DNA of 53,319 nt from positions 1-53,319 of the forward strand of contig SMWE01000059.1 of the NCBI GenBank assembly GCA_004357475.1, read 5' to 3'. Every line of letters begins with the position of its first letter. The stretch's first letter is position 1. Source of the DNA: Gammaproteobacteria bacterium (GTDB lineage: Bacteria > Pseudomonadota > Gammaproteobacteria > Steroidobacterales > Woeseiaceae). The translations under genes and the position numbers were made by a program. The notes below the pieces were generated by a model that worked only from the letters and a program-made list of their open reading frames with translations, was not told the origin of the DNA and made no database searches. Below, piece by piece: positions 27,420 through 31,671 of the stretch.

Positions 27420-28310
27420 TTAGTTCGCAGGTTGATACAGCTGCGTTACTTTAAGGCCACGCTGCGACAACAAATATGGCACGCCTTGCTCGCCAACCAG
27501 GTGCAGCGTACCGACGACGATCAGGTAATCGTCTTCCTCACTCAGTAATTCCTGGATCTTCTCTACCCAGTTTCTGTTTCGGTTTACAACGATTGCCTGG
27601 TGCAGTTCCGCGAATTCCTGCATGTCGGCGAGCAGACTTTTCTCGAGGAACTCGATGTTACCGTAGCGCCAGGCATCGATCATATCGTCCATGACCTCTT
27701 TGAGTCCCATGCTGTCAGACAAGGTCTGGATCAGCATGTCGCGTTGCGACTCAAGTGACAGGTTGTCGAGAATCTCGAGTTGCTGACGCGTGGTCTCCAG
27801 CCCGAAAATTTCCTTGTGGTCGCGCTTCGCCAGCTCGGACAGGTGAAATTCGATGCCATGCATCGGATTAAATCCAATGCGCATCAGCATCATTATTTCA
27901 ATATTGACTGCGGCGTACCATGGCTCCGATTTATCGAGTAGCCGCAGCGGTATCTGCAACTCAGCCGCGAGTGATTCCGCCTCCGCGTACCGCTCAGGGC
28001 CCATCAGGTCGCGCAATGTCCTGCCATCCTGTATCAGCCCCAATTCAGTAGCAAGCGCCTGCTCCGCGACCGGATCGATATCGTCCATATCGAGTTCCAT
28101 GATCAACGTCTCGGCCTCCCTGTACGCCGCATAGATCACCGAGGGAATCGGGTGATCCTGTTCACGCAGCATATGGATCGAACCCAACAGATAGATGCTA
28201 TTGCTCGTGCCCTCAATCTGCCACATAGAAACCGGATGGCCGTTTTCGGCGGCGAGCGCCGGGTAGCCGGCAAGCAGCAGGCTCAGCCAGATTCCGGAGA
28301 AAAATTTCAT
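27420..28310 (-). CDS. TraB/GumN family protein, exported
   Basis: The 296-residue protein has a signal peptide ([18 protein letters not shown]) and the TraB/GumN (PF01963) motifs: YLLGSIHML near the N-terminus, [13 protein letters not shown], and [13 protein letters not shown] near the C-terminus. The paired GxxH elements are thought to form a metal-dependent hydrolase site related to Tiki proteases. The substrate in bacteria is not established. It starts 12 bases after the end of the damaged cpdA on the same strand. Confidence 0.88.
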
Positions 28311-28322
28311 TGGGACTGCACG

Positions 28323-29099
28323 CTAGCCGTTTTCCGGCTCAAGCCAGATCAGCTCATTTTCGACCTGTCCATCCGCGTGCAAACTGATCCGGCGGTAGGC
28401 AGGCGGGTGCTCATCAAGGGCGAAGACGTCATTTTCGACCATGAACTGGCGGCAGGTAGAGGGCGTGCCGATGATTTTAATCGATTCATGGTTGCCTTCG
28501 AATGCCTGGTGTACGTGGCCGAAAATTGCTGCACGAACGTTGCCTGGCTGCGCAATCATCCTGAGAAATTCGTTGCCGTTCTTCAGGCCGACCTGGTCCA
28601 GCCACTTGCTGCCGACCGGCAATGGAGGATGGTGCAGGCAGATCATGACGTGCGCGGCGCTGGTCCGGGCAAGAATTTTCGCGAGCCTGTCCAATTCGTC
28701 ATCATCCACCCGTCCACCGGCATCGCTGTCGACGCAACTGTCAATGCCTGTGATGAGCTAGTTATTGATGTGCACGGACGCGCAATAGTGAAACGGATCC
28801 TGTGAAACCGCGTCGCGCATCAGGTCACGAACGTCATGGTTGCCGGGCACGCAGTACACCGGCAAATTCATGGACGACATAAGTTCGCAGAATCGATCGT
28901 AGGCGGCGCGGCTGTGGTCCTGGATCAGGTCACCCGTCATGGCCACCATATCGGCCGGCCAGTTTGCCTTGGCGATATGCTGAAGTACGCGTGACAGCGA
29001 TGAATGGGTTACCGTTCCGCGCAGACTCGATTCTGAATCGGCGAATAAATGTGGGTCTGTGACATGCAGAACCCGGACAGGATCGGACGATGTATGAAT
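28323..29099 (-). pseudogene. cpdA: cpdA (3',5'-cAMP phosphodiesterase), interrupted by an amber codon and lacking a start
   Basis: One uninterrupted frame reads VRVLHVTDPHLF, TGDLIQDHS, VPGNHDVRD, LHHPPLPVG and IFGHVHQ. These are the metal-binding motifs of calcineurin-like phosphodiesterases, in CpdA order. The frame is broken by a single TAG (28760-28758) in the stretch HINN*LITGIDS, where family members usually have tryptophan or glutamine (NNW or NNQ). At the 5' end the frame opens after a TGA at 29117-29115 with no ATG, GTG or TTG before the first motif; ATT at 29099 stands where a start is expected. No other disruption is seen, so decay is recent. It lies between ahcY and the TraB-like gene. 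Confidence 0.82.
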
Positions 29100-29180
29100 G
29101 GTGTTTCGACTCGCTCAGACCCCAATGGCGCAGATGATAGCGTTTTGCAGCAAATCCGGCCACTGCGGAACTCGGTGTGG

Positions 29181-30494
29181 CTAGTACCGGTAGCGCTCGG
29201 GCTTGAACGGCCCTTCCCGGGACACGCCGATGTAGTCGGCCTGCTCGCTGGAAAGCTCAGTCAACCTCGCGCCAACGCGGTCCAGGTGCAGTCGCGCAAC
29301 TTTCTCGTCCAGGCGCTTCGGCAGTACGTAGACTTCATTGTCGTAATTCTCACCGTTTTGCCACAGTTCGATCTGGGCCAGAACCTGGTTGCTGAAAGAA
29401 TTCGACATGACGAAACTGGGATGACCGGTTCCGCAACCAAGATTTACGAGCCGGCCTTCGGCCAGGAGAATGATTCGCTTGCCGTCCGGGAATACGACGT
29501 GATCAACCTGCGGTTTGATGTTTTCCCATTCGAACTTGTGCAGGTACGCGACATCGATCTCGTTATCGAAGTGGCCGATGTTGCAGATGATCGCCTGATC
29601 CTTCATGCGCTCCATTTGCGGACCGGTAACAACATGGTAGTTGCCGGTGGCGGTAACGACGATATCCACCTGGTCGCAAACCTCGTCGAATATCACGACG
29701 CGGTAGCCTTCCATCGCCGCCTGCAAAGCACAGATCGGGTCGATCTCGGTGATCAGGACCGTGGCGCCCAGCCCCCGCAGTGACTGTGCACAGCCCTTCC
29801 CAACGTCGCCGTAACCGCAAACGACCACAGTCTTGCCTGCGATCATTACATCTGTGGCACGTTTGATACCATCAACCAGTGATTCGCGGCAACCGTACAA
29901 ATTATCGAATTTGGATTTCGTTACCGAGTCGTTAACATTGAATGCCGGACACTTGAGCGTCCCCTCTTTTTGCATGTCGTAAAGGCGTTTCACGCCGGTC
30001 GTCGTTTCCTCTGACAGTCCCTTGATGTTTTTCATCAGCTGCGGGAACTTGTCGTGCAGCAACAGCGTCAGGTCGCCGCCGTCGTCCAGGATCATGTTGG
30101 GCTGCCAGCCGTCCGGCCCGCTGATCGTCTGTTCGACACACCACCAGTACTCTTCTTCGGTTTCGCCTTTCCACGCGAACACAGGGACGCCGGACGCTGC
30201 AATGGCTGCCGCGGCATGGTCCTGGGTTGAGAAGATGTTGCAGGATGACCAGCGAATATCGGCGCCGAGTTCCCGCAATGTCTCGATCAGGACGGCTGTT
30301 TGAATCGTCATGTGCAGGCATCCCGTCAGCCGCGCACCAGCAAGCGGCTTATTCGCTCCATATTCTTCGCGCAGGGCCATGAGGCCCGGCATTTCCGTTT
30401 CCGCTATCGCTATTTCCTTGCGGCCCCATTCAGCCAGCGAAATATCGGCGACTTTGTAATCCTGTTTTTGCAGGGCAACGGCTTCGCTGCTCAT
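29181..30494 (-). CDS. ahcY: Adenosylhomocysteinase
   Basis: AhcY hydrolyses S-adenosylhomocysteine to adenosine and homocysteine, relieving inhibition of methyltransferases. The 437-residue protein has the family blocks [41 protein letters not shown], the NAD-binding [15 protein letters not shown] and the C-terminal KPERYRY. The start at ATG 30494 has AGGAG seven bases upstream and begins 16 bases after the metK stop, so metK and ahcY are one unit. Confidence 0.97.
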
Positions 30495-30510
30495 AGTCGG
30501 CTCCTGATGT

Positions 30511-31671
30511 TTAGGCTGCGACCGCGCCGCGCAAGGCATCTGCCTTGTCGGTGCGTTCCCAGCTGAAGTCAATGTCTTCCCGGCCGAAATGCCCGTAGGC
30601 AGCGGTCGGTTTGTAAATAGGCCGGATCAGATCGAGCATCTGCAAAATCCCGTAAGGCCGCAGGTCAAAGTTTTCACGGATCAGAATCGTCAGTTTTTCT
30701 TCACTGACCTTGCCCGTGCCAAACGTCTGGACGCTGATCGAAGTCGGCTCGGCAACACCAATCGCGTAGGCGACCTGGATTTCGCAACGATCGGCGAGAC
30801 CGGCTGCGACGATGTTCTTGGCGACATAACGGCAGGCATAGGCGGCGGACCGGTCGACCTTCGACGGATCTTTGCCTGAGAACGCGCCGCCACCATGTCG
30901 TGCGGAACCGCCGTAAGTGTCGACGATGATCTTGCGGCCGGTCAATCCGCAATCGCCCATTGGGCCGCCGATCTCGAAGCGCCCGGTCGGGTTAATGTGA
31001 TAGCGCGTCTTGTTGCTGATCCAACCAGCCGGAAGGACCGGCCTGATGATCTCGTCCATTACGCCTTCGCGCAGATCTTTCATGCTGACCTCGGCATCGT
31101 GTTGTGTCGACAGGACGACGGCATCGATAGCGACAGGTTTTTCGTTTTCGTAGACAAACGTGACCTGGCTTTTTGCGTCCGGCCGCAGCCACGGCAGAAT
31201 TCCGGCTTTGCGAACCTCGGCCTGGCGCTTGACGAGGCGGTGCGCATAGGTAATCGGGGCCGGCATCAGGACCTCGGTTTCATTGGTCGCATAACCAAAC
31301 ATAAACCCCTGGTCCCCGGCGCCCTGGCTCTCCTCATCCTCGCGATCGACGCCGCGAGCGATATCGGGTGATTGCTTGCCGAGTGCGTTCAATATGGCGC
31401 AGGAGGCACCGTCAAAACCCATCTTGGAATCGTTGTAGCCGATCTCCAGCACTGTTTTGCGCACCAGCTTCTCAATGTCTACCCAGGCTTCTGTTGTCAC
31501 TTCGCCTGCGACGATGACCATGCCGGTCTTGACCATGGTTTCGCAGGCGACGCGTGCTTGCGGATCCTGTTCAATGATGGCATCGAGGATGACATCGGAA
31601 ATCTGGTCGCATATTTTGTCAGGATGACCCTCGGAAACGGATTCCGAGGTAAACAGGTACGAATGACTCAT
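30511..31671 (-). CDS. metK: S-adenosylmethionine synthetase
   Basis: MetK makes SAM from methionine and ATP. The 386-residue product contains the signatures [31 protein letters not shown] and [19 protein letters not shown]. The start at ATG 31671 gives the standard N-terminus [17 protein letters not shown] although no Shine-Dalgarno is evident. The upstream 252 bases separate it from divergent tkt; I see no SAM- or SAH-riboswitch pattern there. ahcY follows in the same unit, so synthesis of SAM and removal of its product are coupled. Confidence 0.97.

Follow-up and report, generated by a model that had tools for sequence, protein, structure and literature searches.

The window, the whole 53,319-nucleotide stretch of DNA that we analysed, is one entire contig of a 2.66 Mb assembly of 192 contigs that is 75.7% complete. 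On its minus strand it carries, in this order, ahcY, a cpdA frame, and a gene of the TraB/PrgY/GumN family, with the following features.

29181..30572, minus strand: ahcY (S-adenosylhomocysteine hydrolase), the upstream neighbour, given as its longest open reading frame
29115..29117, minus strand: TGA upstream of and in frame with the cpdA ATT, which excludes starts farther upstream
29110..29114, minus strand: GCGAG, a weak Shine-Dalgarno-like stretch 10 nt before the ATT that matches the consensus over fewer than 4 nt
29097..29099, minus strand: ATT, the inferred start codon of cpdA, ten codons before L-H-V-T-D-P-H; relatives have ATT, ATC, or ATG there
28323..29099, minus strand: the cpdA frame (3',5'-cAMP phosphodiesterase family), from the ATT to a terminal TAG (28323-28325), with one internal TAG
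28758..28760, minus strand: the internal TAG of cpdA, codon 114 counting from the ATT, at a nearly invariant tryptophan site
27420..28310, minus strand: the intact TraB/PrgY/GumN family gene (gumN), the downstream neighbour

The true start of ahcY is probably the ATG of MSSEAV, which lies inside the longest frame. An earlier note on this DNA described a single cpdA frame that holds every metal-binding motif and is interrupted by an in-frame TAG, and this description was correct: DPH, GDL, GNHD, LHHPP, and GHVHQ follow one another in one frame across the TAG, matching the series D-x-H, GD, GNHD, H, and GHxH that we take to define class III phosphodiesterases. With the TAG read as a residue, the predicted protein matched the Pfam Metallophos family (3.4e-17) and, best by far, the NCBIfam CpdA family NF008359 (1.9e-64, 217.8 bits); this score is below the curated cut-off of 225, and the name CpdA is used here for the best-matching family. 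The protein was also similar to solved class III phosphodiesterases (Rv0805/Icc chains, 8.7e-13 to 1.1e-11) and to the phosphohydrolase 2dxl (2.7e-14). By family match, we class the frame as a CpdA-type cAMP phosphodiesterase. A search of the rest of the genome, as the earlier note had advised, found no second cpdA in the 75.7% complete assembly, with one match per search. As candidate backup copies, the other Metallophos matches (L002-L004) gave nothing in a full-length search.

The same note named ATT as the first usable codon, and we agree: the in-frame TGA at 29115-29117 closes the frame upstream, and no ATG, GTG, or TTG stands ahead of the metal-binding aspartate. The 141 nt around this start folded no better than shuffled sequences (z -0.15).

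The internal TAG

For the residue replaced by the TAG, the earlier note had offered tryptophan or glutamine. Tryptophan was right, being present in 92 of 93 aligned family members, with phenylalanine in the remaining one; glutamine was absent, and so was any other stop. The orthologue in the nearest relative (G009) encodes a CpdA protein 93% identical to that of the window in an open frame, has tryptophan at this place, and shares both the ATT and the upstream TGA. Between these two genomes, the dN/dS of cpdA was 0.22 overall (0.14 before the TAG and 0.27 after it), compared with 0.24 for the intact neighbour gumN and 0.08 for ahcY. Because cpdA has a dN/dS like that of gumN and the TAG is private to the window, constraint on the gene stayed ordinary until recently, unless the TAG is not real. 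These comparisons fit a recent loss or a consensus error or strain variant in the window copy, much as the earlier note had proposed.

If the TAG is real, it would cut the product down to 113 residues, with the C-terminal metal motifs lost. Recent loss of cpdA through the TAG alone is possible, and the start codon may then be moot in the window's own genome, the gene being cut. That the TAG instead reflects an error of consensus or sequencing, or a variant from a minority strain, and that the living gene is intact and starts at ATT has, in our estimate, a shade under an even chance, and is compatible with a near-cognate start. The assembly is of metagenome type, with the fragmentation and completeness given above, and the TAG is a private single-base difference with no sign of relaxed selection; against this, as a weak check, the mechanical ORF map of the window showed no further gene with an obvious interruption.

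A different proposal, that cpdA is a pseudogene in which both start and frame have been lost, draws on the private TAG at a nearly invariant tryptophan and on truly broken cpdA genes in relatives (the remnants L120 and L121 and the interrupted L119). We consider it unlikely, because the open G009 orthologue has the same ATT and TGA, which argues that the start was not lost here, because dN/dS equals 0.22 as against 0.24 for intact gumN, and because the TAG is the sole lesion. The TAG and the ATT start are two unrelated oddities. Recoding, which the earlier note had judged improbable, and amber suppression also found little favour: TAG terminates 15 of the 50 ORFs of the mechanical map of the window (two of these ORFs are fragments of cpdA), and the anticodon CUA that would read UAG is missing from all 28 tRNA genes found, a weak argument since the assembly is 75.7% complete and a tRNA-Trp was likewise not found among them.

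Start codons of cpdA across the family

We read cpdA starts in a sample of 107 genomes of the family, whose bacteria are mostly uncultured; 98 of these genomes had a cpdA match, and the L-H-V-T-D-P-H strand (the first metal motif) served as anchor. The start counts cover 94 loci and exclude G048 and G108 (remnants L120 and L121), G011 (contig end), and G141 (paralogue only). From the upstream in-frame stop to four codons before the motif, 46 of the 94 loci contained no ATG, GTG, or TTG; extending the search to the last codon before the motif left 42, and extending it to the codon before the metal-binding aspartate left 35, the window included. In these 35 loci, therefore, no canonical in-frame start would yield a complete metal site. 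The earlier note had treated the missing start as damage or sequence error. That reading is wrong, because ATG, GTG, and TTG are likewise missing from the intact orthologue with 93% identity and from 46 of the 94 loci in the family; judged from these comparisons, the missing canonical start is an inherited feature.

An in-frame ATT, ATC, or ATA was present in 45 of the 46 loci. The exception, L019 (from G017, a single-contig genome of 4.06 Mb), had neither a canonical nor an AUU, AUC, or AUA codon in frame before the motif; there, a different frame holds an ATC, which would fit the loss of one base near the cpdA start. When each of the 94 loci was given its best start label, 61 were labelled AUU, AUC, or AUA, 27 canonical (24 + 3), five undecided, and one none. 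Among the 61 near-cognate labels (ATT 43, ATC 16, ATA 2), 48 had no canonical rival in codons -22 to -4 and 13 were chosen over such a rival for a better Shine-Dalgarno sequence; a few more had a rival farther off or at -3, and L080 and L098 are weak calls. A near-cognate cpdA start is thus common in the family and not universal.

Several features point to these codons as starts. First, in the 46 loci a Shine-Dalgarno match of at least 4 nt lay 5-10 nt upstream of 33 of 49 AUU, AUC, or AUA codons, compared with 79 of the 688 codons of other kinds (Fisher p 5.6e-18, with no correction for kinship). The matches are mostly 4-6 nt long, and examples such as AGGAGGT-8-ATT (L061), AAGGAG-8-ATT (L023), TAAGGA-8-ATT (L024), and GAGGT-8-ATC (L017) come from different parts of the cpdA tree; the window's own subclade has a weak one, GAG at 10 nt. 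Second, the distance from start to anchor differs among clades, being mostly -10, -13, -14, or -15, as expected of a start and not of a conserved internal isoleucine. At codon -10 itself, 92 loci had ATT (17), ATC (12), ATG (5, including L010 and L015, both of the window's genus), or varied other codons, commonest among them GCG (12) and GAC (10), which belong in part to loci with a start read at -13 to -15. In L011 and L012, visual inspection showed GC-rich inverted repeats in the gap between ahcY and cpdA, immediately ahead of the Shine-Dalgarno sequence; they could be a terminator or control hairpin.

Two other accounts of the N-terminus were weighed. In one, CpdA is shorter and its true start is a canonical codon located at the first beta strand or close to it. 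In 11 of the 46 loci, an ATG, GTG, or TTG does occur in the stretch that begins three codons ahead of the motif and ends with the codon preceding the metal aspartate, and in two cpdA genes from elsewhere in the class a GTG or TTG precedes the motif by just two codons. This account is nevertheless very unlikely, as the 35 loci described above, with the window among them, have no canonical codon up to the aspartate and the Shine-Dalgarno sequences point to the AUU and AUC codons. The other account makes the isoleucine codon internal to a longer protein produced by readthrough or frameshifting from ahcY. By a pattern search, 93 of the 94 loci had an ahcY-like end upstream of their cpdA, and in L016 and L017 cpdA follows the ahcY TGA in the same frame; however, the distance to the ahcY stop ranges from -11 to more than 190 nt (the value for L006, apparently misplaced, was set aside), and in many loci, the window included, stops in the cpdA frame lie between ahcY and the AUU, which makes such a fusion scarcely credible. 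We favour the reading that translation of cpdA in this lineage begins at a conserved near-cognate codon, AUU in the window and AUU, AUC, or rarely AUA in relatives, and give it, from sequence comparison, a probability of about 0.82.

Other genes, other lineages, and descent

In the samples read, cpdA without a canonical start was confined to this family. In the same family loci, no gene lacked a canonical start among the 62 of 94 readable for gumN or the 25 of 94 readable for ahcY. crp started with ATG in all six family loci read, and pcnB had TTG at one place, judged by eye, in 11 of 15 loci, with two not placed, one divergent, and one without a canonical codon. The latter (L258 of G020) had no in-frame ATG, GTG, or TTG before the conserved region and contained in-frame ATC codons; cpdA of the same genome (L029) was read as starting with ATA. 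The gumN, ahcY, crp, and pcnB starts oppose a general looseness of start codons in the family.

Outside the family, cpdA without a canonical start was found in none of 25 loci from other families of the order, in none of six from Alcanivorax and other hits (L055 being only a partial match), and in none of 53 loci read from the class, where two loci flagged by the margin carry a GTG or TTG at a distance of two codons from the motif. The class sample comprised 140 genomes, of which 80 matched; 61 loci were taken, nearly all weak matches being excluded, and the motif search missed eight of these. One class locus, L289, had a canonical codon only at more than 22 codons from the motif.

On a quick tree of CpdA proteins from 93 of the 94 family loci (L119, interrupted in mid-gene in G140, was excluded) and eight of the 25 outgroup loci, with six rows unlabelled, start type changed seven times compared with a mean of 28 for shuffled labels, a contrast inflated by near-copies; the starred branches alone force only two changes, of the 98 inner branches, 35 are left open, and L118 is placed with the outgroup. 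Near-cognate starts were the only kind in one clade of 30 rows (SH-aLRT 99). Canonical starts occurred in genus g5 (8/8 loci), in one species group as a TTG that overlaps or adjoins the ahcY stop, and scattered elsewhere. In L026, L030, L058, L077, L079, L092, and L095, cpdA was read as canonical, with a TTG that overlaps the ahcY stop or directly abuts it.

CRP is present in the window's genome; across the family, a match at E 1e-60 was found in 91 of 107 genomes and in none of the nine g5 genomes. The g5 genomes are small and keep cpdA with ATG, GTG, or TTG (L108-L111 and L114-L117). Three other small genomes without CRP had a cpdA remnant (L120 in G048 and L121 in G108, both 1.5 Mb and without a strong CRP match) or no cpdA match (G056). 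A tie between start type and CRP was considered and is no more than a hint: g5 represents a single lineage, and both G051 (100% complete) and G055 contradict it, having no CRP match and yet a cpdA read as near-cognate (L032 and L021). Among 13 genomes tried for cyclase domains, class III was found in 12 and class I in none; the window's genome had only weaker class III matches, in large frames.

Translation initiation and cAMP breakdown

Conserved near-cognate starts are already known, and cpdA would be a new member of this group. The AUU start of E. coli pcnB was reportedly described by Binns and Masters in 2002. That AUU is an inefficient start (PMC9410913), and infC, which starts with AUU in E. 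coli and AUC in Streptomyces, has a near-cognate start that is rejected by IF3 (PMC5472188). Likewise, Streptomyces sigR has a conserved GTC start with experimentally demonstrated IF3 repression and a misplaced annotated start (PMC5472188), and Staphylococcus ccpN (AUA) and cvfC1 (AUU) have conserved near-cognate starts with Shine-Dalgarno sequences, such starts giving reporter yields of ~10% of AUG in poor medium and, for ccpN, 30% in rich medium (PMC13009471). In Borrelia burgdorferi, the annotated version of pncA/BBE22, which starts with AUU, was without the N-terminal catalytic-Asp region (PMC13398362). AUU starts arise rarely, with one switch in 61,358 ancestral AUG starts and one in 5,080 GUG starts (PMC5622118).

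cpdA resembles each of these and differs from each. It shares with infC a conserved near-cognate start; infC, however, controls itself, whereas cpdA encodes an unrelated second-messenger enzyme whose start type occurs, in the samples read, in one family only. As with E. coli pcnB, expression would be limited by an inefficient AUU; unlike in E. coli, pcnB of the window's family has TTG in the 11 of 15 loci mentioned above. sigR is likewise a regulator with a conserved non-canonical start, differing in its GTC codon, in encoding a sigma factor, and in its experimental proof, the cpdA start being predicted from sequence. ccpN is also a catabolite regulator, and it and cvfC1 have extended Shine-Dalgarno sequences, in contrast to the shorter ones of cpdA. 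Borrelia pncA pairs an AUU start with a misannotation that drops a catalytic aspartate region, and differs in being one gene, supported by structure and, in the excerpts of that paper available, not treated as having a family-wide trait. In the open-access literature, with most subscription papers outside the scope, we found no joint report of Woeseia and cpdA or of Woeseiaceae and start codons, and no report of a near-cognate cpdA start among the matches listed; a match for cpdA with the phrase "non-canonical start codon" used the phrase, in the excerpt available, for rpoS and gave Salmonella cpdA an ATG start.

How such a start might act can be outlined from the behaviour of near-cognate codons. 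fMet-tRNA would initiate poorly at AUU, AUC, or AUA, codons that IF3 is expected to reject, so that CpdA output would be low, sensitive to IF3, and inversely related to IF3 activity. cAMP breakdown would then be throttled at translation initiation, as IF3 itself would be through infC. In the family, infC has ATC after GGAGG at a conserved place in all 30 loci read, a reading that rests on this place and the GGAGG, only 11 of the 30 being without any in-frame canonical codon. infC of the window's genome has ATC as well, and an in-frame TGA precedes this codon by two codons. With infC starting at ATC, the same IF3 discrimination is probably used in the family. That cpdA has been placed under IF3 control is a suggestion by analogy with infC and sigR, which we advance tentatively and at somewhat less than even odds.

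The gene upstream may contribute. At 19 of 60 near-cognate loci measured, the near-cognate codon lies 11 nt past the ahcY stop, and where this stop is a TAA with GG directly after it, the TAAGG(A) Shine-Dalgarno sequence of cpdA includes the stop itself. In the window, the ahcY stop and the cpdA ATT are 81 nt apart. A ribosome-binding site at or beside the ahcY stop makes re-initiation after ahcY plausible, and such re-initiation or coupling, to judge by this arrangement, probably aids cpdA translation in many relatives. In E. coli, extra IF3 also lowers re-initiation without a Shine-Dalgarno sequence (PMC2268962).

Interest in the cpdA start lies in the role of the gene and the depth of conservation. 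Methods that allow only ATG, GTG, and TTG can put these starts within a catalytic motif or beyond it, so that intact genes look broken, as happened in the earlier note. For the family itself, it is possible, at somewhat less than even odds, that cpdA and infC form a small IF3-governed set of AUU and AUC starts, tying cAMP breakdown and the CRP regulon to IF3 and initiation capacity, with help from re-initiation after ahcY. Throttling at the cpdA start could be tested with ease in reporters, and a near-cognate start kept for long and family-wide in an enzyme that sets cAMP would be a natural case of signalling throttled by the choice of initiation codon.
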